Shown: in pieces, positions 11,011 to 38,812 of the stretch
Numbering within the stretch: position 1 is the stretch's first letter
Layout of the letters: each line of letters begins with the position of its first letter
Source of the DNA: Maribacter sp.
GTDB taxonomy: Bacteria; Bacteroidota; Bacteroidia; Flavobacteriales; Flavobacteriaceae
NCBI GenBank assembly: GCA_022865355.1
Contig: JALHST010000237.1
Location: forward strand, 1 to 39,206
DNA length: 39,206 nt
Reading direction: 5' to 3'
Notes under the pieces: generated by a model
What the model saw: the letters and a program-made list of their open reading frames with translations, nothing else
The model's database searches: none
Told to the model about the DNA's origin: nothing
Translations under genes and position numbers: made by a program

Positions 11011-11016
11011 TCCGGG

Positions 11017-11037
11017 TTTCAAGGTTCAAGGTTCAAA
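11017..11037. repeat. Short tandem heptamer before dnaE
   Basis: The unit TTCAAGG is repeated in TTCAAGGTTCAAGGTTCAAAA, immediately upstream of the dnaE ATG on the minus strand. The in-frame TTG start candidate (11022) falls inside it, which is one reason to prefer ATG 11010. Confidence 0.6.
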
Positions 11038-13990: not shown

Positions 13991-15031
13991 TTATGACAAG
14001 GAGGTCCTGCAGAATTCTAAACATCGCTTGACCTCGTCAATGGCATTTGAACCTTCCGGTATATCATATTCTAATTCGATCGTTGCGGGAAATTTATAAT
14101 TATTATCCCGCATATCCTTCAGCGCCTGGGCTATCGGAGTATCAGCGGTGCCCCACATGACATTTCCCTTACCATGTTCCGGATTTTGACGATCCTTGAT
14201 ATGCATACTTAAAATACGATCATGCTTATTTTTAATAAATTCAAGAGGGGCGGTATTGCCTGCGGCCACAAAGTGTCCAAGGTCAAGATTGATTCCATTA
14301 AATTTTGATTGTTCCAAGGCTACATCCCAAAAAGTGGGGGTCTGTTGTTCGTGGCCGTGATAGCCCACATAAATACCATGTTTTTCGCCCAAGTCACCCA
14401 ATTTCTGGGTCCAGGCATCATCACTGGGGTTTTCCAAGGTTACATGACTTGCCCCCAATGCTTTTGCGGCTCGCATGCCCCATTCAATTTCGGCATCCGT
14501 GTTATCTTGGCCGAAGGCATCGGGTTTGAACGCATAGATGGTCACGCCGGCATCATTGTACATTTTTCGTAAGGCTTCGAACTTATCCATAGGCACGGCT
14601 GCTCGCCAAGCGGCCACTACTTTTTTATAGGCGTCCATCTTTGCCTGCATATCAACCATTTCCTTTTCCTGTACCTTGCTTAAAGTGCCTTCCCTTTTTG
14701 CGCGCATCAGACCATAAAATGCTCTTCTATCAATCGGATTTTCTGGTTTCCCGGCAAAAGATTCTGCGGGATCACCCATTAACTCCACTGCATTGACACC
14801 ACTGTCCAAAATATATTGTAAGGTAGCCTCGGCACTTTGATCGGGCATGCCGCGAAACGAATAGGTGATGAGGCCAATCTGTACGCCATTGATTATCGAA
14901 TTGGGCCTTTTAAAGGAGCTATGTCGTGTCACACCAAAAAGTGAAGGACCGATAAGGGCGGTTCCAGCTGCTAATGCTGCCGTGTTTTCGAGAAATCTTC
15001 TTCTGCCGAGTACTTTGTTCTTAGTTTTCAT
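13991..15031 (-). CDS. Tat-exported sugar phosphate isomerase/epimerase-like TIM barrel
   Basis: A 346-aa protein of the xylose-isomerase-like TIM barrel superfamily (sugar phosphate isomerase/epimerase). The N-terminus has a twin-arginine signal (GRRRFLENTAALAAGTALIG), so it is predicted to be exported folded to the periplasm. Metal-binding barrel positions are suggested by VTLENPSDD, VGYHGHEQQTPTF, NLDLGHFVAAG and SMHIKDRQNP near the C-terminal half, ending in TIELEYDIPEG. It lies 35 nt after the heme protein gene on the same strand, so the two probably form one operon. Periplasmic members often accompany Gfo/Idh oxidoreductases and DUF1080 proteins in sugar-modifying clusters, and both occur elsewhere in this window. 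Its substrate is unknown; isomerase, epimerase and keto-sugar hydratase or lyase activities are all known in this fold. Confidence 0.88.
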   Translation of the reverse strand: MKTKNKVLGRRRFLENTAALAAGTALIGPSLFGVTRHSSFKRPNSIINGVQIGLITYSFRGMPDQSAEATLQYILDSGVNAVELMGDPAESFAGKPENPIDRRAFYGLMRAKREGTLSKVQEKEMVDMQAKMDAYKKVVAAWRAAVPMDKFEALRKMYNDAGVTIYAFKPDAFGQDNTDAEIEWGMRAAKALGASHVTLENPSDDAWTQKLGDLGEKHGIYVGYHGHEQQTPTFWDVALEQSKFNGINLDLGHFVAAGNTAPLEFIKNKHDRILSMHIKDRQNPEHGKGNVMWGTADTPIAQALKDMRDNNYKFPATIELEYDIPEGSNAIDEVKRCLEFCRTSLS

Positions 15032-15066
15032 CCTGATATTTTTTTCTATGGGTTACTATCGTTATT

Positions 15067-17859: not shown

Positions 17860-17962
17860 ATGAAAGGACATGGGTTGGCGAATTAAACGTCTGAATCTAT
17901 GAAAATTAAGTATATTCATGGCAACAAACAAAGTTTTTAGATCAAAATAGAAAAATGTGAGC

Positions 17963-18259
17963 ATGATCGTACATTCGGTTCTCTTCAAGTTGAAATATGC
18001 CAAAGGCACCAATGATGAAAAGCAATTTTTTCTAGGAGTAGGCAAACTGACACGCATTCCTGGCGTGCAAAACCTACATTGTTACCGTCAAACCAATAAA
18101 AAGAATTCTTTCGACTTCGGCATAACCATGGAATTTGAATCCCCTGTGACCTATGAGGCATATAATACACATACAGACCACTTGGCTTTTATTGAGAATT
18201 TTTGGGTACCCGGAGTAGAAGAATTTCTTGAAATAGATTACGAACCATTCATACCATAA
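17963..18259 (+). CDS. Dabb-family (stress-responsive A/B barrel) protein
   Basis: A 98-aa dimeric alpha/beta-barrel protein of the Dabb family, starting at ATG 17963 (MIVHSVLFKLK); an in-frame GTG at 17957 would add two residues. The opening IVHSVLFKL strand, the central IPGVQNLHCYRQ segment and the C-terminal YNTHTDHLAFIENFWVPGVEEFLEIDYE block are typical. Members are small cytoplasmic proteins with little established enzymology; some act as monooxygenase-like or cyclase domains. It diverges from the heme lipoprotein gene and is followed 56 nt later by a sulfatase, so it may belong to the sulfatase transcript. The confined intergenic space suggests shared regulation of the two divergent units. 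Confidence 0.88.
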   Translation: MIVHSVLFKLKYAKGTNDEKQFFLGVGKLTRIPGVQNLHCYRQTNKKNSFDFGITMEFESPVTYEAYNTHTDHLAFIENFWVPGVEEFLEIDYEPFIP

Positions 18260-18315
18260 GGTTCCAGAAGGGTTTATATTGAATTAAAATATATCATTCG
18301 TTTTAATTGATTGCC

Positions 18316-19758
18316 ATGCTAAAATTGCCGAGAATACTATTTATAGCACATTTTGCCATTTTAATCACAGCCTGCAAAAGTAACTCGGAAAAACCACCCG
18401 AGACCGAACAAAGACCCCCCAATGTGGTATTGATCTTTACCGATGACCAGGGGTATCAAGATGTCGGCGTTTTCGGTTCCCCGAATATTGAAACTCCATA
18501 TTTGGACCAAATGGCCAAAGAAGGCGTGCGGCTTACAAGTTTCTATGCAGCCCAGGCTGTATGTTCGGCTTCACGGGCGGGCATCCTGACCGGTTGCTAT
18601 CCGAATCGCCTCGGCATCCATAATGCCTTGATGCCCCATAGCCCGGTAGGGTTGGATCTTGAAGAGACCACCTTGGCAGAAATGTTGAAACAAAAGGGGT
18701 ACACGACCGCTATCTTCGGAAAATGGCATCTTGGGGACCACCCAAAATTCATGCCCAATAAGCAAGGGTTCGACGAGTTTTTCGGCATCCCCTATTCTAA
18801 CGATATGTGGCCTTTGCATCCACAACAAGGCACGTGGTTCAATTTTGGACCCTTACCGCTATATGAGAATGAGACCGTCATCGATACCCTTACGGATCAA
18901 TCGCAACTCACGACCCAGATAACCGCGCACAGTATTGATTTTATTCGGCGAAACAAGAATGCCCCTTTCTTTCTTTACGTCGCGCATCCACAGCCGCATG
19001 TACCCCTATTCGTATCCGATAAATTCAAGGGCAAATCAAAAAGAGGGCTGTATGGCGATGTCATCATGGAAATCGACTGGTCGGTAGGTCAGATTTTAGA
19101 GGCCCTAGCGAAGTACGGAATCGATGAGAACACGCTGGTTATTTTTACCTCTGATAACGGACCTTGGCTGGCGTATGGCAACCATGCGGGCAGTGCCTTG
19201 CCCTTTCGGGAAGGCAAAGGGACCGCCTGGGAAGGGGGCCACAGGGAACCTTTCATCATTCGGTATCCCAAAATGCTGCCTCCGAATAGAACCATCGACA
19301 TCCCGATCATGGCCATCGATATCTTGCCGACCCTGGCCGAAGTGACGAATGCGTCCCTTCCCCATAGAACCATCGATGGCCAGAGCGTTTGGAAAATTCT
19401 GACCGGCGAAAGTACCGAAAGTCCACAGGAGGCCTATTTCTTTTATTACAAAGTCAACGAACTACAGGGGGTTCGTTACGGAAAATGGAAACTCTATTTC
19501 CCGCATACGTATCGCACAATGCAAGGGCAAGTGCCTGGAAAGGACGGATTGCCGGGGGAATACAAAAATATAACCCTACAAGAAATTGAATTATACGATG
19601 TTTTAAACGACCCAAGTGAAACTAAAAATGTCGCCATTGAATATCCCGAAGTAGTAGATAAAATAAAACTCCTCGCCGATAATATGCGCGCACGATTGGG
19701 GGATTCTTTATTGGATATGCAAGGCTCTGAGACCCGGGAACCAGGAAAGATAGAATGA
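18316..19758 (+). CDS. Lipoprotein sulfatase (arylsulfatase family)
   Basis: A 480-aa S1-type sulfatase, starting at ATG 18316 with a type II signal peptide and lipobox ITAC (C20); TTG 18307 would add three residues. The N-terminal metal site is FTDDQG (D43/D44). The formylglycine motif is CSASR at 83-87, an Ala variant of the usual C-x-P-x-R, followed by GILTG. FGKWHLGD and SDNGPWLAYGNHAG contribute further metal and substrate contacts. The enzyme hydrolyses a sulfate ester, likely on an algal or animal glycan, from the cell surface or periplasm. The Cys must be converted to formylglycine by anSME or FGE, neither of which is seen here. Its stop overlaps the trmN6 start by 4 bases (ATGA), implying translational coupling. 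The substrate cannot be assigned. Confidence 0.93.
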   Translation: MLKLPRILFIAHFAILITACKSNSEKPPETEQRPPNVVLIFTDDQGYQDVGVFGSPNIETPYLDQMAKEGVRLTSFYAAQAVCSASRAGILTGCYPNRLGIHNALMPHSPVGLDLEETTLAEMLKQKGYTTAIFGKWHLGDHPKFMPNKQGFDEFFGIPYSNDMWPLHPQQGTWFNFGPLPLYENETVIDTLTDQSQLTTQITAHSIDFIRRNKNAPFFLYVAHPQPHVPLFVSDKFKGKSKRGLYGDVIMEIDWSVGQILEALAKYGIDENTLVIFTSDNGPWLAYGNHAGSALPFREGKGTAWEGGHREPFIIRYPKMLPPNRTIDIPIMAIDILPTLAEVTNASLPHRTIDGQSVWKILTGESTESPQEAYFFYYKVNELQGVRYGKWKLYFPHTYRTMQGQVPGKDGLPGEYKNITLQEIELYDVLNDPSETKNVAIEYPEVVDKIKLLADNMRARLGDSLLDMQGSETREPGKIE

Positions 19759-25862: not shown

Positions 25863-28166
25863 TCATAACTTAACTCTTTCTAAAATAACCTTGATCGATT
25901 TACTGATGGGGGTTTTGCTACGATCCGCATAATGGTTATGGGGTACCAAGACATTGGTCTCAGGAAAATAGGCGGCCAAATTTCGTCGAGGGATGGTATA
26001 GGGTACGACCAAAAAGTTATACGCTGTTCGATGAATGCCGTCATACCGGCTGATAATATTAACCACGTCCTTTTTGAGTAAGCCCCTTTCTTCCATATCT
26101 CCCTGGTTCATGAACAAAACCCTGCGTTCATTGTATACCCCTCGGTACCGGTCATCCAACCCGTAAATGGTCGTATTGAATTGATCGTGTGATCGAATGG
26201 TCATCAACATATATTCGTCTTCCTTTAGGTGATGCTCGGGCAGTTTGTTCAAGGTGATTCGGGCCTTTCCATTCGGCAATCCACTAAAATCGAGTGCACG
26301 TACATTGTTGGGCAAATAATATCCGACCCCTTTTGACTGTTCACTGGTCCGCTCAAAACCTTTGGCGATCAAATCGATATATTCGCGAATCAGGCTGTAA
26401 TCAGTCCCCAAGGATTTCCAATCTACCGAGTGTTTGCCCTTAAAATAGGTATCGGCGATTTCGGCAATGAGTTCAGGTTCGCTTTTTAAAGCATCGGAAG
26501 CTGGTTTTAACAGACCTCTCGATTGTCGCACCCTGCCCATGCTGTTTTCGACCGTAAAATAACGCAGTCGACCCTCTCTCATATCTTTTTCCGAACGACC
26601 GAGTGTTGGCAATATCAGCGCCGTTTTTCCGGCGACCAAATGGGTCCGGTTCAACTTGGTGCTGATTTGCACGGTTAAACTGCATCTTTGAAGCGCCTCG
26701 GCCGTATATTCGGTGTCGGATGCCGCCATGAGAAAATTACCTCCCAGGGCCATAAATACTTTTGCCTCTCCTTCATACATCGCCCGCATACAACCCACCG
26801 TATCAACCCCTTCTTCCGTTGGCGGTTTAAAGCCCAGATGTTGTTCTATCCGCTCGTTCATTTCCTGATCCACAAAATGCATGATGCCCACACTGCGATC
26901 CCCTTGTACATTGCTATGGCCCCGAACAGGACAGGTGCCGGCATGCGGCTTCCCCAACGCCCCTTTTAGCAACAAAAGATTTACGTACTCGCGAATATTC
27001 TCTACCCCATTTTTATGTTGCGTCAGTCCCATCGCCCAACAAATTATGATTTTGGATTTGTGTGATAACAAGGCCACCGCCTCTTCGACTTTGTTTGGGT
27101 CGACACCACACAGTCGTAATAATTCTTGATCATCATAGGTTGTAAGATCTTCCAATAGGCCCTTATAGCCCTCGGTATATTTTGAGATGAATTCATGGTC
27201 GAAGACCGAATTATCGAAGGCATCCAAATCGGCCAATTTCTTGATAAGCAATTTGACCAATGCAACATCCTGGTTGATGTTTATCGGCAAATGCAGGTCG
27301 GCCAGACTATCGCCAGACCCTATCCATCCATTGAGTTGCTGGGGATTCTTAAAATTTACAAGCCCTGTTTCCTCCAGCGGATTGATACTAATGATCTTGC
27401 CCCCGTTCTCCTTACATTTCTGCAATGCGGACAGCATACGGGGATGGTTCGTTCCTGGATTTTGTCCTGCGACGATGATTAACTCGGCCCCGTAAAGATC
27501 TTCCAAGGTTACCGAACCTTTCCCAATTCCCAAGGTTTCACTCAAGGCCACTCCACTACTTTCATGACACATATTGGAACAATCGGGCATGTTGTTGGTT
27601 CCAAAGGCACGGGCGAAAATTCCGTATAAAAAGGCGGCTTCGTTGCTAGAACGGCCCGAGGTATAAAAAATGGCCTCGTTGGGAGAAGCTAATTGCCGCA
27701 GTTCGTTCGCAATTAGTTCATAGGCATCCTTCCAAGCAATCGGTTCATAAAATATGCTCCCAGGTCTTAGGACCAAAGGTGCCACCAAACGTCCGAATTT
27801 GTTTAGTTCATAGTCGGTAAGCAAAGAAAGTTCCTCGATCGAATGCTGGCTGAAAAAATCGGCACCAATATGTGAGGTCGTGGCCTCATCGGCCAGGGCC
27901 TTTGCCCCGTTTTCGCAATATTCGGCAATCTTGGATGGTTTTTCGGGATCTGGCCATGCACAACTTGGGCAGTCAAAACCCTCTTGCTGGTTCATCTCAA
28001 GTAAGGCGCGCATAGACCGTACGATCCCCATTTCCTTAAAACTGTGCCGCAGTGCCTCCTTGACCCCTAAAAGTCCGGCCGCCGTGCGCACCGGTTCCTT
28101 AATTTCAAGCCCGGTAAAATCCTGATTTCCGCGGATCGAAACGTTTCTACGAAATTTTTGTTGCAT
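25863..28166 (-). CDS. YdeP/FdhF-family molybdopterin oxidoreductase
   Basis: A 767-residue protein from ATG 28166; the longer frame from 28259 adds 31 residues that do not match the family. It matches the YdeP group of formate-dehydrogenase-like enzymes over its full length: GFDCPSCAWPDP (C66, C69) and C84 in CENGAKA, YTSGRSSNEAAFLY, DCSNMCHESSG with C200 where related enzymes place the Mo-ligating Cys/SeCys, GHNPGTNHPRML-type (here GQNPGTNHPRML), CPVRGHSNVQGDRSVGI, and a C-terminal molybdopterin-dinucleotide domain (TIRSHDQFNTTIYGLDDRYRGV). YdeP is linked to acid resistance in E. coli, but its reaction is unclear. No FdhD or accessory subunit is adjacent. It lacks a Tat signal, so it is probably cytoplasmic. 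Confidence 0.92.
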   Translation of the reverse strand: MQQKFRRNVSIRGNQDFTGLEIKEPVRTAAGLLGVKEALRHSFKEMGIVRSMRALLEMNQQEGFDCPSCAWPDPEKPSKIAEYCENGAKALADEATTSHIGADFFSQHSIEELSLLTDYELNKFGRLVAPLVLRPGSIFYEPIAWKDAYELIANELRQLASPNEAIFYTSGRSSNEAAFLYGIFARAFGTNNMPDCSNMCHESSGVALSETLGIGKGSVTLEDLYGAELIIVAGQNPGTNHPRMLSALQKCKENGGKIISINPLEETGLVNFKNPQQLNGWIGSGDSLADLHLPININQDVALVKLLIKKLADLDAFDNSVFDHEFISKYTEGYKGLLEDLTTYDDQELLRLCGVDPNKVEEAVALLSHKSKIIICWAMGLTQHKNGVENIREYVNLLLLKGALGKPHAGTCPVRGHSNVQGDRSVGIMHFVDQEMNERIEQHLGFKPPTEEGVDTVGCMRAMYEGEAKVFMALGGNFLMAASDTEYTAEALQRCSLTVQISTKLNRTHLVAGKTALILPTLGRSEKDMREGRLRYFTVENSMGRVRQSRGLLKPASDALKSEPELIAEIADTYFKGKHSVDWKSLGTDYSLIREYIDLIAKGFERTSEQSKGVGYYLPNNVRALDFSGLPNGKARITLNKLPEHHLKEDEYMLMTIRSHDQFNTTIYGLDDRYRGVYNERRVLFMNQGDMEERGLLKKDVVNIISRYDGIHRTAYNFLVVPYTIPRRNLAAYFPETNVLVPHNHYADRSKTPISKSIKVILERVKL

Positions 28167-28333
28167 TCCTAAAGATAACTTTATTTGGCAATCGAAGCAA
28201 CAACTGGGCCCAGCCTGTTTTTTAAAACACGCAGCAGAAAACGACCTATTTGCATCCAAAGATGGGTCTATAGTTTACTTTTAAATTAATTTGTTACTTT
28301 TAGTCGTATTCATTCAAAACAAAAACCGTATTC

Positions 28334-29140
28334 ATGTATGCTACCCAGGCAAGTACTAGAGAAATGATTACCAGAATCGTCATGTTCGTGATACTTTTGA
28401 CCAGTATACTATCTTGTCGGGACAACACCCCCAATGCCAATAATTCGGTCGCTGAGCAAGAAGAAGGTTTCGAACCAATCTTCGATGGAAAGACCTTGCT
28501 ACACTGGGAAGGGGACCCTGGCTACTGGCGGGTGGAAAATGGGAATCTGGTCGGTGAAATTACCCCGCACAATCTCTTAAAAACAAACACTTTTGTCATC
28601 TACGCCGGCGAAATACCAAAAGATTTTGAACTAAAAATGGACTTTCGAATTACCGAAGATGGGAACAGCGGTATCAACTATCGCAGCGAGTTACTAGATA
28701 CCATTCCCTTTGCCTTGCGGGGCTATCAAGCCGATATTGATGGAAAAAATAGATATACCGGTCAAAACTACGAAGAGCGGAAACGCACCACCCTAGCATA
28801 TCGGGGTGAAAAGGCCGAGATTTCATCCCAGGTCAATCCGGGCACCCCGGGATCCCTTTTCACCAATATAATGAACAATGCCTGGCAAATTAGAAAGGTT
28901 GTGGACTCACTTGGAAATGCCGATTCCTTACGCGCTAAAATACGTTCCGGGGATTGGAACGAAATACACCTTATTATACGAGGCAATGATCTGCAGCATT
29001 TTATCAACGGCGTTTTGATGAGCGAGGTAATCGACAATGACAGTATCAATAGAAGCTATAACGGGAAGCTGGGAATGCAGGTGCACGTAGGGCCCCCTAT
29101 GAAAGTAGAGTACCGCAATATTAGGCTGAAAAAACTATAA
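28334..29140 (+). CDS. DUF1080 (3-keto-disaccharide hydrolase-like) lipoprotein
   Basis: A 268-aa lipoprotein of the DUF1080 family (Pfam name 3-keto-disaccharide hydrolase), a concanavalin-like jelly roll. A signal peptide ends in lipobox ILSC (C28 from ATG 28334, or C18 if ATG 28364 is used). The family blocks are EPIFDGKTLLHWEG near the mature N-terminus, NSGINYRSEL centrally, and the C-terminal YNGKLGMQVHVGPPMKVEYRNIRLKKL. Members are frequent in Planctomycetes and Bacteroidota and are tied to 3-keto-glycoside processing, although only a few have been tested. It is exported and anchored, in agreement with periplasmic sugar chemistry. It is divergent from the YdeP-like gene and is followed 165 nt later by a PhyH gene. 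Confidence 0.9.
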   Translation: MYATQASTREMITRIVMFVILLTSILSCRDNTPNANNSVAEQEEGFEPIFDGKTLLHWEGDPGYWRVENGNLVGEITPHNLLKTNTFVIYAGEIPKDFELKMDFRITEDGNSGINYRSELLDTIPFALRGYQADIDGKNRYTGQNYEERKRTTLAYRGEKAEISSQVNPGTPGSLFTNIMNNAWQIRKVVDSLGNADSLRAKIRSGDWNEIHLIIRGNDLQHFINGVLMSEVIDNDSINRSYNGKLGMQVHVGPPMKVEYRNIRLKKL

Positions 29141-29305: not shown

Positions 29306-30130
29306 ATGTTGACAAAGGCACAACTAAAAACTTACCAAAGCGACGGTTACCTATTGCTAAAGAACTTATTTGACAAAGAAGAAATTGGCCTATTAAAAGA
29401 AGCTGCGATGCACGACCGAGAGTTAGATCGCCGCTCTTACGGTCGGGCCGATGGAGAAGGCGGTACGGTTCGACTATCGATTTGGAACCATCCCGGAAAC
29501 AACATTTATGGTATGTTTGCCAGAAGTGCCCGAATTGTCGAAGCCGCCGAAGATTTGTTGGGCGGCGAAGTGTATCATTACCATTCTAAAATGATCCTGA
29601 AGGATGCCAAGGTCGGCGGCGCTTGGACCTGGCATCAAGATTATGGCTATTGGTATAATTTTGGCTTGTTACAACCTTTACTAACCAGTGTTACCATCGC
29701 GGTAGATAAGGCCACCAAGGAGAATGGCTGCCTACAGGTCTTGAAAGGCTCGCATACCATGGGCCGTGTTGACCATGCATTGAAGGGCGATCAGGCCGGT
29801 GCCGATATGGAACGCGTGAACGAGGCCTTGAAGAAATTTCCACTGGTATATTGTGAAATGGAGCCAGGGGATGCTATGTTCTTTGATTGTAATATTTTGC
29901 ACCGCTCGGATCAAAACCGTTCGGAGAATGCGCGATGGTCTTTGATATGTTGTTATAATGCCGCCAGGAACAACCCATATAAAGAGAGTCAACATGCAAG
30001 TTATACCCCTTTGGTAAAGGTCGGGGATGATGCCATTAAGAGCTCTGCTTTAAAAGGATTTGAAAAAGAATCGCAATCAGATTGGGTATCGCCGGAAAGC
30101 GATAAAACGATTGAAAAACTAAAGTCCTAA
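29306..30130 (+). CDS. PhyH-family 2-oxoglutarate/Fe(II) dioxygenase
   Basis: A 274-aa phytanoyl-CoA dioxygenase-like protein of the double-stranded beta-helix fold. The iron-binding facial triad is H110 and D112 (WTWHQDYGYWYN) with H199 (NILHRSDQN); R210 (ENARWSL) is the likely 2-oxoglutarate anchor. CLQVLKGSHTMGRVDH is typical of the PhyH core. It would hydroxylate a small substrate at the expense of 2-oxoglutarate and oxygen. There is no signal peptide. Its stop codon overlaps that of the convergent Gfo/Idh gene (TAA 30128-30130 versus TAG on the minus strand at 30127-30129). Substrates in this family are very diverse, including ectoine and methylated or fatty acyl compounds, and cannot be assigned here. 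Confidence 0.9.
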   Translation: MLTKAQLKTYQSDGYLLLKNLFDKEEIGLLKEAAMHDRELDRRSYGRADGEGGTVRLSIWNHPGNNIYGMFARSARIVEAAEDLLGGEVYHYHSKMILKDAKVGGAWTWHQDYGYWYNFGLLQPLLTSVTIAVDKATKENGCLQVLKGSHTMGRVDHALKGDQAGADMERVNEALKKFPLVYCEMEPGDAMFFDCNILHRSDQNRSENARWSLICCYNAARNNPYKESQHASYTPLVKVGDDAIKSSALKGFEKESQSDWVSPESDKTIEKLKS

Positions 30131-31317
30131 CGAAATATTCTTTGTGACACTTCACCAGTTAGCTTATTCTTTAAAATAACTTTGGTGTCCCCGTTGGGCA
30201 ATTTCTCCTCTTTTATCAAGTAATGGTCCGCATCATAGGTCGTCAATTCATTTTGTGCCTCTGTAATCTCATCGCCACGCCAATCCTCGAGCAGCACCGG
30301 TTCCCATAATTTGGATTTGGCCGATGCATAAGCGGCGTCCAAAATGGCATTGACCACGTACCCGTCATAAAATGTTTCCTGTGGTTGACGGTTTTCCTCA
30401 ATGGCCGAGAACATATCGGTAAACATATTTGGGTATCCGAGTTCATGGGCTTCATCACCAACAGGAAATAGCCACCCCTTGTTCACCTCTGCTTTTTCGG
30501 CTACATAGCCACTACCCATCCCCGTGGTGAACATTTCAAAACCGGTACGTAGGAAGCTATTGATCCAGATGGTCCCTTCGGTGCCCATAACCTCATCACG
30601 AAGATCCATCCCGCCTCGAAAGGCCCAACTTACTTCGAATTGGCCAATGGCACCATTGGCATACTTCACTAGGCCGATGGCATGATCTTCAGCCTCTATG
30701 GGATGTACCTGGGTATCGGCCCAGCACATGACCTCCAAAGGTCTGATGTTCTTGCCAATAAAATTTCTGCTAATCTCAACGCAATGACATCCGAGATCGA
30801 TCAGGGCACCACCCCCTGATTTTTCCTTGTCCCAAAACCAAGCACTATGGGGTCCGGGATGGGTTTCCCTTGACTTTGCCCAAAGCACCCTGCCGATAGT
30901 GCCTTTGCGAATGCTCTCTACCGATTTCAAAAATTTGGGGGTATAGCATAGATCTTCAAGGTATCCGCCGAATATTCCTGCGGTTTCGACGCTATCGAGC
31001 ATACGTTTGGCCTCTTTGGCATTACGGCCCAAGGGCTTCGTGCAGATAACGTGCTTTTTGGCCAAGGCACATTGCGTAACCGCTAGTTCGTGCAAGTCGT
31101 TGGGCAAGGCGATCAAGACTACTTCTACTTGCGGATGTTCGATGGCCGCCTGCATTGAATCGGTGTGGTGCGCCACCCCATAGTCATCGGCAAGGCGTTT
31201 GGCATTTTTAATGTCACGTGAATAGACCGTTACAAGTTCATCCTTTCTTCTTTGCGCGTGCAACGACTCGGCATAAAAACGGGCAATAAATCCCGAACCT
31301 AACATGGCTATTTTCAT
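30127..31317 (-). CDS. Gfo/Idh/MocA-family oxidoreductase
   Basis: A 396-aa NAD(P)-dependent oxidoreductase. Residues 1-20 show the Rossmann loop (GSGFIARFYAES). K94 and P95 (CTKPLG) form the EKP-like catalytic motif, and D174/H178 in ALIDLGCHCVEI match the catalytic Asp and His of the second domain. No signal peptide is seen, so it is probably cytoplasmic. Such enzymes oxidise inositols, glucose-fructose pairs or the C3 of glycosides. It is the third gene of a minus-strand set with DUF1549/1553 (32799-35633) and DUF1501 (31359-32795), 41 nt after DUF1501, which is unusual company and suggests a sugar-linked role for the whole set. The C-terminal tail (YLIKEEKLPNGDTKVILKNK) is longer than in compact members. 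Confidence 0.9.
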   Translation of the reverse strand: MKIAMLGSGFIARFYAESLHAQRRKDELVTVYSRDIKNAKRLADDYGVAHHTDSMQAAIEHPQVEVVLIALPNDLHELAVTQCALAKKHVICTKPLGRNAKEAKRMLDSVETAGIFGGYLEDLCYTPKFLKSVESIRKGTIGRVLWAKSRETHPGPHSAWFWDKEKSGGGALIDLGCHCVEISRNFIGKNIRPLEVMCWADTQVHPIEAEDHAIGLVKYANGAIGQFEVSWAFRGGMDLRDEVMGTEGTIWINSFLRTGFEMFTTGMGSGYVAEKAEVNKGWLFPVGDEAHELGYPNMFTDMFSAIEENRQPQETFYDGYVVNAILDAAYASAKSKLWEPVLLEDWRGDEITEAQNELTTYDADHYLIKEEKLPNGDTKVILKNKLTGEVSQRIFR

Positions 31318-31358
31318 GTCTCTATTATTTTATTTAGGGAAGGGCCGAAGCCCTTGGT

Positions 31359-32795
31359 TTATCCAAACAAATCCAGCACAGGTTTCCCCATTCCGTCTGG
31401 GGTCGTATAAAAGGGCCTTCCTTCAATGGTATAATGTGTTTCAGGAGGTATGCCCAGGGCATGGTAGATGGTCTGATGCACCTGGTCGATGACCACAGGG
31501 TTTTCAATAGAGGCACAGGGTCTTTCATCGGCCGTTTTGCCATATACCAAACCCTTTTTAATCCCTCCGCCCCACATGAGTATGGAACTTCCATTGGTAA
31601 AATGCCGGTGCATACCATAAAATTTTTCATTCTCTATAATATCAGGCTGATCCACTTGGTCTTGGACCAATTCCCCCGGTCTTCCCTCCATAATGGCATC
31701 ACGACTGAATTCACTGGCCAAGATGATCAATGTTCTATCGAGGTGTCCTGATTTCTCCAAATCAATTATTAATTGGGCGATCGGCCGATCGATCAATTCT
31801 TTCATTTTTACGGTACGGGTGTGACCGTTTTCGTGGGTATCCCATCCCAAAAAGGGCTCATACTCAGTAGAAACACTTATAAACCGAGCGCCATTCATAG
31901 CCAACCGCTTAGCCATCAGACAGCCCAAGCCAAATCTACCCGTGTTATAGGTGTCATATACTTCCTTGGGTTCTTGCGACAAATCGAAAACCTTGGCCTC
32001 TGGAGAGTGCAGTAAACGGTACGATTGCTCCATCGAACGCATCAAAGATTCCCTTTGATAATCGCTTCCCGCTTCCATTATCTTGTTTTGATTGGCCAAT
32101 TCCTTATATAACTTAAATCGGGCCTCAAACCTTTTAAGCGACATTCCCTGAGGCGGCCGAACACTGTCCAGCCCTCCAGAAGGGTCCGGAATGAGGAACG
32201 GGCCGAATTCACTTCCCAAAAAACCGGCCGAATGAAAAGCCTTCAACTCTTCCGCTTCTCCTACGGTAAACCGTTGACCCATGGCAATAAAGGGCGGAAT
32301 GACCGGATTGGCGGGTCCCAGTTCCTTAGCGATCCACGCACCAATGTGCGGTGCTTGTACCGACTGCGGTGGCTCGTAGCAGGTATGCCAGTGGTATTGG
32401 TGCCTCGTGTGTAGGATGTGGCCCAGGTCGGCCGATTTGTAGGAATGTATTATGGCCCCTTTATCCATGACTCCTCCTATAGACGCGAGCCCTTGAGAAA
32501 AATCAAGTCCATCTACAACGGTCGGCACTTTCGGAAAGGTGCTCAGCACCCGCTTGCTCTCGACCCCTTTCTTATAAGGTACATAGGCCTTCGGGTCAAA
32601 AGTTTCGGTATGCGCCATGCCGCCTGCCATCCATAGCAAAATGACCGTATCGGCGGTTGCGGGTATTTTTGGAAACCGAGGGGTACAGGAGCTCAAAAAG
32701 CTGGTCAATGGTATGGTTGTCGCCGAAGCGGCAATACTTGCGGCCGTCATTTTTTTTATAAAATCCCTACGTAGGTTTTGTGTTTCCATGACCAT
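31359..32795 (-). CDS. DUF1501 family protein, Tat-exported
   Basis: A 478-aa protein of DUF1501, an alkaline-phosphatase/sulfatase-superfamily fold abundant in Planctomycetes. The N-terminus has a twin-arginine-like signal (NLRRDFIKKMTAASIAASA) and then a Cys within SFLSSCTPRF that could also act as a lipobox. Early GGMAHTETFDPK and a late GWDTHENG together with RTLIILASEFSRD are the family hallmarks. It carries no sulfatase formylglycine motif, and its chemical function is unknown. It starts 3 nt after the DUF1549/1553 gene stop, the usual paired arrangement, so the two are probably translated together and may act on the same envelope substrate. ATG 32795 was chosen; ATG 32789 is an alternative. 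Confidence 0.92.
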   Translation of the reverse strand: MVMETQNLRRDFIKKMTAASIAASATTIPLTSFLSSCTPRFPKIPATADTVILLWMAGGMAHTETFDPKAYVPYKKGVESKRVLSTFPKVPTVVDGLDFSQGLASIGGVMDKGAIIHSYKSADLGHILHTRHQYHWHTCYEPPQSVQAPHIGAWIAKELGPANPVIPPFIAMGQRFTVGEAEELKAFHSAGFLGSEFGPFLIPDPSGGLDSVRPPQGMSLKRFEARFKLYKELANQNKIMEAGSDYQRESLMRSMEQSYRLLHSPEAKVFDLSQEPKEVYDTYNTGRFGLGCLMAKRLAMNGARFISVSTEYEPFLGWDTHENGHTRTVKMKELIDRPIAQLIIDLEKSGHLDRTLIILASEFSRDAIMEGRPGELVQDQVDQPDIIENEKFYGMHRHFTNGSSILMWGGGIKKGLVYGKTADERPCASIENPVVIDQVHQTIYHALGIPPETHYTIEGRPFYTTPDGMGKPVLDLFG

Positions 32796-32798
32796 TGC

Positions 32799-35633
32799 TC
32801 AATTAATAAATTGAAATTCAGGTAAGTTTAAGGTAGCCCAGAATACATCTTGCAAGGCTTCCCTGTTAGGTTGCCCACCCAAAACCCCTAGCATTATTTC
32901 TCTTTCCGATTTGGTCGGATTCCTTCCCAATGATCTTTGATAGAGTGCCTCTATAATACGTTGGCCGTTGGCGCCATAGTGCACGAGCCATGCATCGGCT
33001 CCTTCGGCCAATACCTGATTGAAAAATGCCCCGTTCGTTAATTCCAGGGCCTGCAATAGCGTAGCCTGATCGTCTCTTGTCGTGGTTACATTCTCGCGAC
33101 TAGGACGTCCTAGGGCCTTCATAAAGGGGTGCTGACTCACAAGACTTGCCCTTGCAAATTTACCCGCTGGTCCATCAAAAGAAAAGTTTACCAAATTACC
33201 CCAATTCGAGGTGCCATAATCACGGACTTTGGCCCAATCGCCGTCATTGAAGCCTATACCGACCCAGCCTTTATGTGGTTCGACGGCCGTACTTTTCCAA
33301 TTTGTATCGGCGTTGATAATGATATCATTTTCATTGTCATACTCAATCTTCATGGCAAACGAAATCCCCGCGGGATTGGCAATGCTTCCCTCATTGAACC
33401 CTTCGATGGCGATACAGTTTTTACCTGCGGAAAGATATTTCGAGACCTCCAATTTATCGACCTTTTTCCAATCAGCGCCCTGTGCTATATTTTTGCCATT
33501 TATGTACAGAATGTATGAATGATCGACAGAAATCAACACCGTCGCACTTTGTATGGGTCTATTCGCAAGGCTGAAAGTTCTGCGGAAATAGCGCTTGCCT
33601 GGTTCGGGCAGCACATCACGTTCAAATTTTAATTCGCGATGCCATATTCTTGATGCGGGAAGCTCCCCTGTTGGACTGTAGGCGACCGCAGCATACATTG
33701 GCGTGATTACCTGACTTACGGCATCTGAAAATTCCTCGGCACTCATACGTCTTAATGTTGGGCCATGAAAAATGAAGTTATTCTTAATTTCTGCCACATC
33801 GTGATAGCTCACGCTAGGCAGTTGGTACCCCTTTGAGGTCATGATCATTTTCAACAGATGTTTTAGGTCATAGCCAGAATCTAAAAAATCTGCTGCCAAC
33901 CAATCGAGCAACACGCCGTCCCATGTGGCATTGTCCATCTCATCCACCGGTTCGACAATACCTCGTCCCATGAGCCGCTGCCAGAAACGATTGGTGATGG
34001 TACGATACAACCTGCCATTCTCAGGTTTAACCATTACCTCAGAAAGATTCGACAACCTTTCTTTTTTGTTTTTGGCCGCTATATTGCCCAACTCAGGATA
34101 CAGAAAATTTACTTCGGCCATTTTTCCCATGGGTTTGTCGCAGCGATTCAGTTCAAGGACCGAGTCGGCAAAAATAGACGCAAAGCCATAGGACTGCTCC
34201 AATGTTAGGTTGCTCACAAAACTATTATGGCAGGAGGCACATTTCACATTGATTCCTAACAAGGATTGCCCAATATTCTGGGCTGCCTGCATTTCGGTCC
34301 GCTGACTTGAATTTACGACGCCCCGCCATTCTATCCCTTTTATAAAACCTTCGGAATCCTCCGTAGGATTGACCAATTCCTTGACCATGAGATTATAGGG
34401 CTTATTCTCCTTTAAGGAGGTGTAGAGCCAATCGGTTATCTGTTTTCTTCCTCCGGTAATAAATCCGGTGCCGGTATAATCATTTCGTAGAAGATCATTC
34501 CAAAAGCTAAGCCAATGCTCCGTATAGTTAGTAGAATCCCCCAATAAGGTGTCGATCAGGTTACTCCTTTTGTCAGGGTCCGGGTCCACTACAAATTGGT
34601 CGATGTCCTTTGGTTCGGGAAGCAGTCCGATGATATCCAAATAAACCCGTCTGATAAATGTTTTATCGTCGACCACTTCGGGCCATTCAATCGCATTCCT
34701 TTCAAAATATGAATTGATCAATCTATCAACAGGATGTTTTTCAGTACTGTTGACCGGTAAATCGGGTTTGGAAAGTGCCAATGGGGCTTCAGGAAATAAT
34801 TTGAGTGTCTGGTCAGACCAATGCGCGCCACTTTCTATCCACAACCGGATCAGCGCAATTTCACTGTTCTTTAATACTTTTCCCTTTTTTGGCATGACGT
34901 CCTCATGATTGGGCGACAGGGCAATTCTTCGATACAACTCACTTTGTGCCGGTTTTCCAAAAACGATTATGGGGCCCCCTTTCCCACCTTTATATACCCC
35001 GGCTTTGTTTTCAAGCACCAATTCGCCCTTTTTCTTGTTCTCGCTATGGCATTGATAGCAATTATGGGCAAAGATTTTCCTTACTTCAAGGTTTAGCTGG
35101 TCTTTGCGCGATGTGGTGAGCGAATCCAATTGGTTTAATTCGGCGAATAGTAGGGCGGCTTTGCCATCGTCGGGTGAATGCGTATTGCCCGGCAGCACGC
35201 TGCTTAGAAAATCTTCACCATGGGTAAGATTCGTACCTAAATGGCCAGCAATAATAAGACAGACCACGGTAAGTGTCAGGCCTATCCTGTACGGGATATA
35301 GCTACTGGCTTTATTTTTCATTTTCCGCATCAAAAGAAATGCTGTAATACCGGCCAGTGCACCGGTGGTAATGCCCATGTTCTGATGAAGATCTACCAGT
35401 TCTCCCAAATAATCATCATTGGTTCGCAGTAGCCAGCCAAAAATGGCCCCGATTACGGCCGAAATGGCTCCAATGTAGACCATCCAATTGATGCCTTGCC
35501 GCAGACCTTGCCGCTTTTGGCCAATGGTGACCAGTTCAAGGATCAACCCTACTACCAGCAGCCCTATCGGAAAATGCACGATCAATGGATGCAATCGCCC
35601 TAAAAATTGGAATATCCATCTAAAATCCTCCAT
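32799..35633 (-). CDS. DUF1549/DUF1553 heme protein with DUF2231 membrane anchor
   Basis: A 944-aa multidomain protein. Residues 14-134 contain four membrane helices of the DUF2231 type (HPLIVHFPIGLLVVGLILE). A Planctomycete cytochrome c domain has CYQCH at 192-196, then DUF1549 (about 300-510; FIRRVYLDIIGLLPEPKDI) with a second CASCH at 465-469, and DUF1553 (about 530-930; YRTITNRFWQRLMGRG early, LYQRSLGRNPT late). Inside DUF1553 a beta jelly-roll-like insert (about 665-815; YILYINGKNIAQGADW) resembles carbohydrate-binding N-domains of rhamnosidases. The large part probably faces the periplasm and carries electrons by two hemes c. Function is unknown in any organism. DUF1501 follows 3 nt downstream. 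The start ATG 35633 gives the membrane region directly. Confidence 0.92.
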   Translation of the reverse strand: MEDFRWIFQFLGRLHPLIVHFPIGLLVVGLILELVTIGQKRQGLRQGINWMVYIGAISAVIGAIFGWLLRTNDDYLGELVDLHQNMGITTGALAGITAFLLMRKMKNKASSYIPYRIGLTLTVVCLIIAGHLGTNLTHGEDFLSSVLPGNTHSPDDGKAALLFAELNQLDSLTTSRKDQLNLEVRKIFAHNCYQCHSENKKKGELVLENKAGVYKGGKGGPIIVFGKPAQSELYRRIALSPNHEDVMPKKGKVLKNSEIALIRLWIESGAHWSDQTLKLFPEAPLALSKPDLPVNSTEKHPVDRLINSYFERNAIEWPEVVDDKTFIRRVYLDIIGLLPEPKDIDQFVVDPDPDKRSNLIDTLLGDSTNYTEHWLSFWNDLLRNDYTGTGFITGGRKQITDWLYTSLKENKPYNLMVKELVNPTEDSEGFIKGIEWRGVVNSSQRTEMQAAQNIGQSLLGINVKCASCHNSFVSNLTLEQSYGFASIFADSVLELNRCDKPMGKMAEVNFLYPELGNIAAKNKKERLSNLSEVMVKPENGRLYRTITNRFWQRLMGRGIVEPVDEMDNATWDGVLLDWLAADFLDSGYDLKHLLKMIMTSKGYQLPSVSYHDVAEIKNNFIFHGPTLRRMSAEEFSDAVSQVITPMYAAVAYSPTGELPASRIWHRELKFERDVLPEPGKRYFRRTFSLANRPIQSATVLISVDHSYILYINGKNIAQGADWKKVDKLEVSKYLSAGKNCIAIEGFNEGSIANPAGISFAMKIEYDNENDIIINADTNWKSTAVEPHKGWVGIGFNDGDWAKVRDYGTSNWGNLVNFSFDGPAGKFARASLVSQHPFMKALGRPSRENVTTTRDDQATLLQALELTNGAFFNQVLAEGADAWLVHYGANGQRIIEALYQRSLGRNPTKSEREIMLGVLGGQPNREALQDVFWATLNLPEFQFIN

Positions 35634-35743
35634 GCTCCTAATTTAAGGATATTTTTATTCAAAAAATGTCCTGTGCGATACTATATGGAATGACAAACTT
35701 TAGGGGTATAAAAGCCTTCCTTATAGCTCCTGGGTATGCCCCT

Positions 35744-38700
35744 TCAATCAACAGCACCTATTTTGCCGCCATCCCGCTGTTTCAAAAGTTTCGTACTGGT
35801 CTTCATATCGGTATATCTGGGATCCTGTACATAGTCCTGTTTTTGCATCTTGATGACCTCGATGCTCAAAAATCCGAATTCGCTGACTACCTTCCCATAA
35901 AAGCGATAAATACCCCGGCCCCTAAAATAATATTGGGCGGCGACCGGCGGAAAGAGCACCGTGTCGAACACCTCGCCATGCTGATCTACCAAGGTGGCAA
36001 AGTGCATCCGTTTCCCATCGTGGGTGCTGGCATTCTTGACCGTGACCAGATAGCCATACAGATCGATATGATGGCTGAGATAGCGTTCCAAATCCTTGCT
36101 GCCATGTCCGTTTTTAGGGGGTTCGGCCAATAGCTCGAACGGACTGCACAGACAGAAGCCCAAAAGTTCCAATTGGGTAAAGGCCGTTTCAAGATCGGTG
36201 GTATGCAATTGTGGGATCTTGAAATCCTGGTGTTTGGGCGGAAATAGTTTTGGGTGGTCGATTTTTACATTTTTATTCAGAAATAGGTGGGCTTTCCATA
36301 GCAATTGATGCTTGTTTACCCCAGTAAACCGAAAGGCATCGATCCGGATCAGGATACTGACTTGCTCTATGGAAATAAAGACCCTGTCAAGAAAATCCTC
36401 CAGGGATGCAAAGCTTCCCTTGAGAAGGCGCTCTTTTAGGATGCGTTCGGCTACCCGGCTTTCCAAATCCCGCAGATACCCAAAGCCCAGGAAAATATCC
36501 TTTCCATAGATAACATTGGCATGGCGACTTTGATTGATGCAAGGAGCGTGTATGCGGGCGCCCAACATACGGGCCTCATGAATATAAAACTCCGCCCTAT
36601 AAAATCCGCCGCCATTATTAAGTACCCCCACCATATACTCCAACGGATAATAGGCCCGCAAAAACAAGGTCTGATAACTTTCCACGGCATAGGAAGCCGA
36701 ATGTCCTTTGGCAAAGGCATAACCGGCAAAACTGGCGATTTGGTCCCAAATCTCGGTAATAAGCTTTTCCTCGTACCCCATTTTTCGGCAATTATCGACA
36801 AACTTCTCCTGTACTTTTTGAAACTCTTCTCGGGAACGGAACTTACCGCTCATGCCCCTTCGGAGCACATCGGCCTCGCCCAAACTGAGGCCGGCGAAAT
36901 GGTGGGCGACTTTGATTACATCTTCCTGGTAGACCATGACCCCGTAAGTATCGGGCATGATGTTCAACATCACAGGGTGTGCCCTTTCCTCTGCCCTCCC
37001 CGGGTTTCGATGGCGAAGGATGTATTCGCGCATCATCCCACTTTTGGCTACTCCGGGGCGTATGATCGAACTCGCCGCGACCAGCCCCAGATAGGTGTCC
37101 ACTTCCAATTTTTTGAGCAGCATCCGCATCGCGGGCGACTCCACATAAAAACAACCCATGCATTGTGCCGTTTTTATAAGATTGTTGATCACGGGATCCT
37201 TTTTGAACTTTAGGATGTCGTGGATATCAAAAGTGTCTGCCCTTTCTGGTTGGTTGTATCCTACAATTTCTATGGCCTCCTTGATTTTTGCCAGACCCCG
37301 TTGCGCCAAAATATCGAATTTATAAAGACCTACATCCTCGGCTATGACCATATCGAACATGGTAGTGGCAAAGCCTTTGGGGGGCAGGTGGGTCGCCGAA
37401 AAATAATGTATGGGCCGCTCACTGATCAAGATCCCTCCCGCGTGAATACTCAGGTAGTTGGGCATGTCCTGGATCAATTGGCCATATTTTAAGACCAAAT
37501 GGGAAACCTCATCAAGTTGCGAAACCTGCCCTTCCTGCAAACGGGATAGGTGCCTTCCTTCGGATAGGGAATCAATTTCGCTTTTGGGGAGTCCGAAGAC
37601 TTTTCCCAATTCACGTACGACCCCTTTTTCCTTGAAAGTAACATAGGTACCCAAAAGGGCCACATTGTGGAACCGGTCAAAAATATATTGGGTCATCTCT
37701 TCCCGGTCCTTCCATGAAAAATCAATATCAAAATCGGGTGGATTGGCCCTATAAAGATTCATAAAACGCTCGAAATAAAGGTCTAGTTCCATGGGATCCA
37801 CATCGGTAATACGCAACAGATAGGCCACAATACTATTGGCCCCGCTACCCCGACCCACATAGAAAAAATTTCGTTTTCGGGCATAGGAAATGACATCCCA
37901 ATTGATCAGAAAATACGAAACGAAACCCATGCTTTTGATGAGTTGCAGTTCTTTCTGCAGGCGTTCGATGACCCCGTCGCCACCCTCGGGATACCGATAG
38001 GGCAAGCCCTCTTGACACAGCCTTTCCAATAGTGCCTCATCTTCTTCCTTGGAGCCTAGATAGGTCTTCAAATTTTGGGGTTGCCGGCCTTCCGAAAAAT
38101 CAAAATGGATACTACACGCGTTCATCAACCGCTCGGTGTTCTCGAGGATAAAACTGTATTCCGAAAAGGCGGCCGCCAAATTTTGTATGGGGAACATCTT
38201 CTCATCCTCGCAGGCTTCCTCGGTCTTCTCCAATTTGCTCAACAAGACATTCTTGGCAATGGCACGCAACAAACGATGGGCATTGAAGTCGCGTTTGTTG
38301 CGAAACGTAACGGGCTGCTGCACGACCAATTTCTCCTTCAATTCCATCAATCTGGAAAAAGGCAACCGCCGTAGATCGGCAATGGAAATGCCAATAAATT
38401 CGTTCCCTGCAAATTTTTTTTGATCGTTCAGCAATACTTTTTCAAAGGGATAAACGATATAGGCATTCTCAAAATTGGGGGCGAGGGCGGGCAGTTGTTT
38501 TTCCTGATGCAGATGGTCTGATAAAAATGCATTTAGTTCCCGATAGCCGGCATTGTTCTTGGCGATGCCCACATAACAGGGATCCACCCCGTTCCTGAAA
38601 TCGATGCCCAAAATAGGCCGAATGCCATATTGTGCCGCTTTCCGGACAAAGTTTAGGCCGGCCGACGTATTGTTGATATCGGTCAATACGAGTTGGGTCA

Positions 38701-38788
38701 CCTGGTTCTCCTGCGCCAATTGCAAAAGTTCGGTTTCGGAAAAGGTACCGTAGCGAAGGCTGTAGTATGTGTGACAGTTTAGGTACAT
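35744..38788 (-). CDS. dnaE2: Error-prone DNA polymerase III alpha (DnaE2/ImuC-like)
   Basis: A 1014-aa C-family polymerase from ATG 38788; a TTG at 38809 would add seven residues. The palm residues are intact: PDFDIDF (D352, D354), D492 in LYKFDILAQRGL, and VGRGSGANSIVAYLLRI before them. There is no fused exonuclease, and the PHP domain looks degenerate: the N-terminal MYLNCHTYYS lacks the usual HxH (first position Asn, NCH) and TDINNT replaces T-D-H. This points to a non-proofreading enzyme for mutagenic translesion synthesis, as in DnaE2/ImuC. It follows a Y-family polymerase gene (38843-39206) separated only by a palindrome, matching the SOS mutagenesis cassettes of Bacteroidota. I use the symbol dnaE2 for the type, not for proven orthology. 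Confidence 0.9.
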   Translation of the reverse strand: MYLNCHTYYSLRYGTFSETELLQLAQENQVTQLVLTDINNTSAGLNFVRKAAQYGIRPILGIDFRNGVDPCYVGIAKNNAGYRELNAFLSDHLHQEKQLPALAPNFENAYIVYPFEKVLLNDQKKFAGNEFIGISIADLRRLPFSRLMELKEKLVVQQPVTFRNKRDFNAHRLLRAIAKNVLLSKLEKTEEACEDEKMFPIQNLAAAFSEYSFILENTERLMNACSIHFDFSEGRQPQNLKTYLGSKEEDEALLERLCQEGLPYRYPEGGDGVIERLQKELQLIKSMGFVSYFLINWDVISYARKRNFFYVGRGSGANSIVAYLLRITDVDPMELDLYFERFMNLYRANPPDFDIDFSWKDREEMTQYIFDRFHNVALLGTYVTFKEKGVVRELGKVFGLPKSEIDSLSEGRHLSRLQEGQVSQLDEVSHLVLKYGQLIQDMPNYLSIHAGGILISERPIHYFSATHLPPKGFATTMFDMVIAEDVGLYKFDILAQRGLAKIKEAIEIVGYNQPERADTFDIHDILKFKKDPVINNLIKTAQCMGCFYVESPAMRMLLKKLEVDTYLGLVAASSIIRPGVAKSGMMREYILRHRNPGRAEERAHPVMLNIMPDTYGVMVYQEDVIKVAHHFAGLSLGEADVLRRGMSGKFRSREEFQKVQEKFVDNCRKMGYEEKLITEIWDQIASFAGYAFAKGHSASYAVESYQTLFLRAYYPLEYMVGVLNNGGGFYRAEFYIHEARMLGARIHAPCINQSRHANVIYGKDIFLGFGYLRDLESRVAERILKERLLKGSFASLEDFLDRVFISIEQVSILIRIDAFRFTGVNKHQLLWKAHLFLNKNVKIDHPKLFPPKHQDFKIPQLHTTDLETAFTQLELLGFCLCSPFELLAEPPKNGHGSKDLERYLSHHIDLYGYLVTVKNASTHDGKRMHFATLVDQHGEVFDTVLFPPVAAQYYFRGRGIYRFYGKVVSEFGFLSIEVIKMQKQDYVQDPRYTDMKTSTKLLKQRDGGKIGAVD

Positions 38789-38812
38789 GGTACAAGTGCC
38801 AAATTCCAAATT

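Follow-up and report, generated by a model that had tools for sequence, protein, structure and literature searches.

The 39,206-nt stretch of Maribacter sp. DNA analyzed here (hereafter, the window; it is contig C184 in a genome of 3.97 Mb whose nearest named relatives are Bacteroidota including Maribacter and Arenibacter) encodes, on its reverse strand, a multidomain cytochrome protein and a DUF1501 protein, with 3 nt separating the end of the cytochrome gene from the start of the DUF1501 gene. An earlier note, made from the sequence, had placed a DUF1549/1553-DUF1501 pair at 31359–35633, and both the open reading frames (ORFs) and Pfam bear this out. The make-up of the cytochrome protein and the genes found near its orthologues tentatively point to a periplasmic oxidoreductase that acts in glycan breakdown. 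The pair, its parts and two flanking genes are:

32799–35633, reverse strand: DUF2231-PSCyt1-PSCyt2(DUF1549)-PSD1(DUF1553) protein, 944 aa, with an inserted CBM67-like module (ORF, Pfam, model)
35223–35594, reverse strand: DUF2231 helical membrane part, residues 14–137 (Pfam, model, conserved His)
34884–35060, reverse strand: PSCyt1 haem c domain, residues 192–250, with CYQCH at 192–196 (Pfam, alignment)
34164–34733, reverse strand: PSCyt2/DUF1549, residues 301–490, with a second haem c motif, CASCH, at 465–469 (Pfam, alignment)
33708–34049, reverse strand: first part of PSD1/DUF1553, residues 529–642 (Pfam)
33165–33665, reverse strand: CBM67-like jelly-roll insert, residues 657–823 (phmmer, alignment, predicted structure)
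32889–33137, reverse strand: second part of PSD1/DUF1553 (Pfam-type match)
31359–32795, reverse strand: DUF1501 protein, 478 aa (Pfam, predicted fold)
30127–31317, reverse strand: Gfo/Idh/MocA oxidoreductase, 41 nt downstream of the DUF1501 gene (Pfam)
28334–29140, forward strand: DUF1080 / 3-keto-disaccharide hydrolase-family protein, opposite in strand to the pair and about 2.2 kb away from it (Pfam)

Orthologous DUF1501 loci comprised 11 from 296 genomes of the phylum, the best 80 of 582 matches and the window itself, giving 92 loci (90 distinct, L068/L109 and L074/L136 each being the same sequence reached twice; L, C and G numbers are our labels for loci, contigs and genomes). All 92 have a cytochrome gene on the DUF1501 strand, positioned 5' of DUF1501 and within two ORFs of it. 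The gene is cut short in L075, L086, L116 and L157, which were left out of the protein counts, and the intergenic gap ranges from −43 to 453 nt (median 13.5) among the 88 full-length cases. As controls we used 42 paralogous loci, consisting of 39 chosen from the non-orthologous matches (1–2 per genome) and L076–L078; some of them share a genome with an orthologous locus (G000 and the source genomes of L065–L075).

Membership of the window protein in the PSCyt1-PSCyt2-PSD1 family is indicated by PF07635, PF07583 and PF07587, which score 50.9, 150.7 and 137.1 bits against curated cut-offs of 22, 29.8 and 28.5, and DUF2231 is called on residues 14–137 (1.4e-11). Both CxxCH motifs are kept in 88/88 full-length orthologues and their Cys and His residues (C192, C195, H196; C465, C468, H469) in 93/93 aligned proteins; Met247, a candidate axial haem ligand, is invariant in 88/88. 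Within DUF2231, His 15, 20 and 83 are kept in all 85 rows having a letter there, His 131 in 83/86 and His 138 in 87/88; these five residues are candidate ligands of a haem b, which DUF2231 may bind and through which it would meet quinone. Membrane electron transfer, which the earlier note had read from a DUF2231 anchor and two CxxCH sites, is supported by this pattern, the His residues, both motifs and an axial-type Met being conserved as needed. An AlphaFold2 model of the whole 944-aa protein (93 aligned rows) has a mean pLDDT of 86.3; its fold-match list was filled by matches to the insert and included no settled fold for the PSCyt2-PSD1 helical core.

The same parts also occur unfused. A paralogous operon on contig C283 of the window genome encodes, after its DUF1501, a separate PSCyt1 protein that aligns at 30% identity with residues 7–322 of the window protein, where this part is fused. 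Pfam did not call DUF2231 in the C283 protein and called both DUF2231 and PSCyt1 in a related separate protein in L139. The existence of fused and unfused forms suggests that the parts work together.

The C283 operon (L076, 790–8730) has genes for FGE-type (SUMF1-like), YceI-like and ApbE flavin-transferase proteins upstream and for a separate PSCyt1-LRR protein downstream. By phmmer, FGE occurs in 3/42 controls (L076, L161 and L162) and ApbE in 2/42 (L076 and L161), and both in 0/92 orthologous loci. These are hints that flavinylation or formylglycine chemistry might accompany the L076-type paralogous group.

The CBM67-like insert in PSD1

PSD1 of the window protein is split by an insert at residues ~657–823, slightly longer than the jelly-roll of the rhamnosidase kind that the earlier note had claimed at about residues 665–815. 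Over this region, phmmer matched the window protein to a Pleurotus lectin (1.3e-16, the best PDB sequence match) and an alpha-L-rhamnosidase (2.3e-9), and the insert to the module of the Streptomyces avermitilis alpha-L-rhamnosidase (8e-11; 3w5m/3w5n, SaRha78A), a module that we take to be CBM67 (CBM, carbohydrate-binding module). Comparison of the predicted insert structure with CBM folds, a check that the earlier note had proposed, gave Z 21.4 to 3w5n, the alpha-L-rhamnosidase with L-rhamnose (1.8 Å over 154 residues, 28% identity), Z 18.7–19.2 to the Pleurotus lectin (19.0 to 6kc2, with rhamnose) and Z 17.1–17.9 to N-terminal parts of GH78 enzymes, the first unrelated row following at Z 8.9. 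The insert is of the S. avermitilis kind in both sequence and predicted fold, and prediction could hardly establish its carbohydrate-binding fold more firmly. Outside the family, the best match to an insert profile was a GH78 enzyme adjoining the pair in L080 (1e-11), followed by an unannotated 1107-aa protein (L199, 6e-10) and then mostly other GH78 enzymes.

Residues D179, N180, W203, N228 and P233 of 3w5m, which we take to be its Ca/L-rhamnose site, align with D, H, W, N and P in the window. Across the 46 insert-bearing orthologues, D179 is D in 46, W203 is W in 45, N228 is N in 43 and P233 is P in 46; such conservation is above average, not unique, because 28 of the 158 positions in the insert reach at least 43/46. 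Position N180 is more varied (H 30, N 9, D 4, Q 2, E 1). Asn or Asp stands there in 13/46 inserts, and 10 of those 13 belong to members of rhamnose loci, that is, loci with a GH78, GH106 or RhaT gene in the fetched DNA; the 12 full-length insert-bearing members of these loci have Asn (8), Asp (2) or His (2).

The loop that holds the insert is 180–192 aa long in 46/88 full-length orthologues and 17–26 aa in 42/88. On the DUF1501 tree (97 rows, 95 of them differing; quick method) insert state is explained by one change, which may have been a gain or a loss. Because the core is unchanged in the 42 copies that lack the insert, the insert is dispensable for the core reaction, and its presence or absence in otherwise alike orthologues offers a ready natural comparison. 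A profile search found the CBM67-like module in none of the cytochrome proteins of the 42 paralogous loci.

Insert-free copies of 932 aa occur in L122, L126, L131 and L132; the L122 copy, the sole one of the four scanned, has two PSCyt1 stretches before PSCyt2, and extra haem domains may occur. The whole pair is tandemly duplicated in L085 (7128–15877) and also in L086.

The DUF1501 partner

PF07394 matches the DUF1501 protein with 248.7 bits (cut-off 27; 1.5e-73). Its model (74 rows; pLDDT 84.6, pTM 0.85) has the core fold of the alkaline-phosphatase superfamily, with Z 19.6 to ENPP6 and PafA and ~18 to sulfatases; 5egh aligned over 260 residues at 3.8 Å (Z 19.6), and 509/914 chains matched at Z of at least 5. 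An hhalign comparison with S1 sulfatases (Prob 94, E 1.4e-7) covered the C-terminal half only, and the match to 6j66 was 9.4e-5. Six residues (H129, D319, H321, E362, R365 and H398) are invariant in 74/74 rows, all of which also have Glu or Asp at position 64; the conserved Asp, Glu and His set could bind metal.

The C-x-P-x-R sulfatase maturation motif was present in 0/92 DUF1501 orthologues, which do not qualify as S1 sulfatases, and in 1/55 paralogues compared with 26/32 neighboring sulfatases. H129 lies 9 residues before T138, the spacing of the sulfatase Cys, and the paralogues have N-H-x-P...TG in 53/55 and Pro at +2 in 33/35. Placed by this motif rather than by coordinates, His129 would replace the nucleophile. 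A Tat-type RR motif is found in 87/92 orthologues and a lipobox-like Cys in 80/92, the window protein having both.

Sugar genes around the orthologous loci

Neighbor families were annotated on representatives and spread by profiles from single representatives, so that distant members can be missed. GH78, GH106 or RhaT genes occur in the fetched DNA of 15/92 orthologous loci and 1/42 controls (p 0.021), SusC/SusD in 28/92 vs. 2/42 (p 0.0006) and DUF1080 in 18/92 vs. 0/42 (p 0.0008), the Fisher p values treating loci as independent although they are related. The 42 control loci had no SusD, two SusC and seven sulfatases. Enrichment extends to the insert-free orthologues, which have SusC/SusD in 14/42 and DUF1080 in 9/42.

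The 15 rhamnose loci consist of 12 from one Flavobacteriaceae subclade, in which every tree member is a rhamnose locus (12 rows; SH-aLRT 96), plus L080 (Maribacter, with insert), L132 and L141 (both without); counted by insert, they are 12/46 with and 2/42 without, plus L086 (cut short). The nearest GH78, GH106 or RhaT gene lies 61 to 3971 bp from the pair, and outside the subclade a rhamnosidase is found within 0.5 kb in L080 (188 bp), L132 (433 bp) and L141 (234 bp). In whole-genome counts for 14 of the 15 rhamnose-locus genomes (L086 left out), the sole RhaT over the cut-off has the coordinates of the pair's fetched locus in 6/14, and there are 2–11 GH106 and 1–11 GH78 matches per genome. 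In several Flavobacteriaceae the rhamnosidases are concentrated in one or two stretches of contig, together with BNR_4 proteins (a family that presumably covers ulvan lyases) in the six genomes searched for these; ulvan would be the polymer in these loci.

Genes of keto-sugar type follow some pairs directly. Four insert-free loci (L127, L150, L153 and L154) share the run PSCyt-DUF1501-PVC-type haem protein-DUF1080-DUF4432-unnamed-TIM barrel-Gfo/Idh (names checked on L127, DUF4432 also on L153, other loci by profile or phmmer), and in L066 and L095 the pair is directly followed by DUF1080 and then Gfo/Idh. The earlier note had taken the Gfo/Idh gene as the best hint of a sugar substrate. This is not supported: Gfo/Idh is near 13/92 orthologous loci and 4/42 controls (p 0.58), and none lies within four ORFs of the pair in the window's nearest tree rows (L080–L082, L084 and L111).

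Nor was a single transcript of the pair and Gfo/Idh, also claimed in the earlier note, upheld, because the 41-nt gap at 31318–31358 contains a hairpin (6-bp stem, UUCG loop); the gene is co-directional, lies just beyond the pair and may or may not share its transcript. Hairpins of at least 6 bp within 50 nt after DUF1501 occur at 3/92 loci compared with 0.9 expected from shuffles, and the folding energy of this stretch is ordinary (z −0.56). Pattern scans of 30000–36200 gave 11 promoter-like sites (10.1 in shuffles) and 10 terminator-like sites (6.6 in shuffles, sd 2.4); no terminator-like site falls in the gap.

Rhamnose genes of the window genome lie elsewhere. Its one GH106 gene is on contig C212 in a rhamnose operon separate from the pair, with a rhamnulose-phosphate-aldolase/dehydrogenase above cut-off and L-rhamnose-isomerase-like and FGGY kinase genes below theirs. 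The organism can probably use rhamnose, with the pair outside that operon. BNR_4 had no match in this genome.

Beyond Gfo/Idh, PhyH and DUF1080 genes lie on the opposite strand to the pair; DUF1080 there says little because the genome has 20 matches. The window also encodes an FdhF/YdeP-type molybdopterin oxidoreductase (25863–28259, reverse strand), whose relatives immediately precede the cytochrome gene in L065, L083 and L102, and a second sugar-type cluster (13991–19758) with a TIM-barrel isomerase-like protein, a DUF7133/PVC-type haem protein with an F5/8 type C domain and a sulfatase. At 6625–11022 (reverse strand) is a 1465-aa DNA polymerase III alpha in which an exonuclease domain is fused to the N-terminal side of PHP, and the ORF adjoining the pair (35744–38809) may encode a second, shorter DNA polymerase III alpha.

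Proposed function and known systems

We propose, with a probability of about 0.42, that the pair forms an oxidoreductase module in the periplasm, anchored to the inner membrane and used in glycan breakdown, in this clade most likely of rhamnose-containing glycans. Sugar oxidation with electrons passed to quinone would fit the parts best. The PSCyt2-PSD1/DUF1501 core would take electrons from a sugar or glycoside and hand them over two haems c to a haem b in DUF2231 and then to the quinone pool. Meanwhile the enzyme would be kept close to rhamnosyl groups by the CBM67-like module, and the oxidized sugar would pass to keto-sugar enzymes (DUF1080, Gfo/Idh) where these are present. The earlier note had suggested a sugar as substrate of the paired DUF families. 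For this clade the idea is supported, mainly by one subclade and three further loci and on evidence other than that note's, and a rhamnose-type substrate class is moderately supported; for the DUF families at large it is not supported, given the 42 paralogous control loci.

Besides the relatedness of the compared loci, several findings weigh against this proposal. The same core is kept without the insert in 42/88 copies, and the window insert itself has His at position N180, an unlikely Ca ligand. Pfam found in the pair no domain for flavin, PQQ or another organic redox cofactor, and to our knowledge the DUF1501 fold family comprises hydrolases, transferases and mutases but no redox enzymes. 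Paralogous pairs have little sugar context, and neither sulfatases (27/92 vs. 7/42, p 0.14) nor Gfo/Idh nor sugar-acid genes (single or few cases) are significantly enriched over controls. The 12 of 15 rhamnose loci in one subclade count as about one event, and with so many rhamnosidases per genome such a neighbor is more readily expected here than in a typical genome. RhaT matches away from the pair exist in the genomes of L141 (4), L132 (2) and L089 (2), whereas 4/14 genomes have none and one has a fragment below cut-off. GH78, GH106 and RhaT are all absent from the window, and GH78 and RhaT from the whole window genome.

These points leave room for a core unrelated to sugars, for example one of envelope redox or stress chemistry, with the insert a lectin-like targeting or structural module only and the glycan context hitch-hiking. 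The insert-free copies, the sugar-poor paralogous loci (including the one with FGE-type, YceI and ApbE genes in the window genome) and the LamG domain between PSCyt2 and PSD1 in 3/5 paralogous cytochrome proteins scanned are consistent with it, and an R. baltica PSD1/PSC2 gene is treated under common stress response in PMC2754498. We regard it as doubtful, given that SusC/SusD and DUF1080 are enriched in this clade even around insert-free copies. The DUF1501 protein could instead be the enzyme, a metal-dependent hydrolase or lyase acting on sulfate, phosphate or glycosidic bonds, in which case the cytochrome would only tether it or set the redox state of its metal. Its fold similarity to ENPP6, PafA and sulfatases, the S1 sulfatase profile match, invariant D319, H321, E362 and H398 and sulfatases near 22/46 insert-bearing loci argue for such an activity, which the missing C-x-P-x-R motif, a His at the presumed nucleophile position in 74/74 rows and the overall lack of significant sulfatase enrichment make distinctly unlikely.

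Two further readings keep sugar oxidation and differ in its product. If the pair were a glycoside 3-dehydrogenase replacing LacABC in a 3-keto-sugar pathway, DUF1080 would cut the product and Gfo/Idh would reduce the keto sugar, which would suit the DUF1080 counts (18/92 vs. 0/42), the compact runs in L127, L150, L153 and L154 and the DUF1080-Gfo/Idh order in L066 and L095. DUF1080 is near only a fifth of pairs, however, it is abundant in the window genome, and a GMC-type flavoprotein domain is absent from the pair. LacABC with DUF1080 is a published proposal for such a pathway, and the same source has one characterized DUF1080 member as an endo-xanthanase/lichenase, the family being no proof of keto sugars (PMC9007349); we consider this assignment unlikely. 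A periplasmic C1 oxidation of free L-rhamnose that yields rhamnonate, with sugar-acid enzymes next, is very unlikely. After the pair in L141 there are a galactonate-transporter-like MFS (below cut-off), a UxuA-like dehydratase, an SDR and an RraA-like protein, L132 has a NanA/DapA-type lyase and a similar transporter, and an enolase-superfamily protein precedes the pair in L152. None of these genes is enriched over controls, and we rejected the route as a candidate; the L152 protein matches muconate-cycloisomerase models far below cut-off and no rhamnonate dehydratase model, and the six loci with RhaT at the pair favor the view that rhamnose itself is taken up. A bolder form of our proposal seems to us quite improbable: the pair would be a novel class of sugar dehydrogenase linked to quinone, with an alkaline-phosphatase fold turned metal redox or substrate site doing the work of flavin or PQQ, and one of its clades would act specifically on rhamnosyl glycans, ulvan for instance.

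The earlier note held that the paired DUF families have no known function, and the literature searched (subscription papers mostly outside it) gave no experiment on the pair and no tested function of PSCyt/PSD1 or DUF1501. Suggestions are nevertheless in print: a redox function is cited in PMC2754498, which also counts 41 copies in R. baltica of each of two of the PSCyt/PSD1-type domains, and a role in carbohydrate metabolism is suggested for CBM-bearing PSCyt proteins, predicted to be periplasmic or cytoplasmic (He et al. 2017, PMC5615132). PSCyt/PSD1 proteins are numerous, yet in the literature searched they lack a tested function, and the clade described here supplies a concrete sugar to try in marine Flavobacteriaceae.

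Among known systems, one that resembles the proposed module in outline is LacABC. Glycoside 3-dehydrogenases of this type have a GMC flavoprotein subunit, whereas Pfam finds no GMC domain in the two pair proteins (the rest of the genome was not searched for a separate subunit). The likeness to the periplasmic lactose 3-dehydrogenase LacABC lies in membrane-bound periplasmic sugar oxidation with DUF1080 afterwards (Price et al. 2022, PMC9007349); DUF1080 has also been placed in xanthan breakdown (PMC5673643). The DUF1501 protein shares with the alkaline-phosphatase superfamily (ENPP, PafA, S1 sulfatases) its fold and conserved, potentially metal-binding Asp, Glu and His residues, and differs in lacking C-x-P-x-R, in the His at the presumed nucleophile position and in having a cytochrome partner. 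The insert shares with the S. avermitilis module (3w5m/3w5n) its fold, 28% identity over 154 residues and the Asp, Trp, Asn and Pro of the site assumed above, but that module sits in a GH78 enzyme and the window module in a cytochrome protein, with Asn180 replaced by His. The Pleurotus ostreatus lectin (6kc2, 6li7, 6t1d and 6t0q; entries with rhamnose, GalNAc and melibiose) contains the same module as a free-standing fungal lectin with two such stretches.

Also close, in architecture, are the PSCyt-PSD proteins of Verrucomicrobia, which combine PSCyt and PSD domains with CBMs including Bac_rhamnosid_N and LamG, and whose PSCyt2 genes usually adjoin a family of unknown genes (PMC5615132). Because CBM-bearing PSCyt proteins, Bac_rhamnosid_N included, have been in print since 2017, the pair is a variant of an already described kind. 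Compared by text with those proteins, it differs in coming from Bacteroidota, in its fused DUF2231 membrane part, in the position of the CBM67-like module inside PSD1 and in the three-dimensional match of that module to rhamnose-bound structures.

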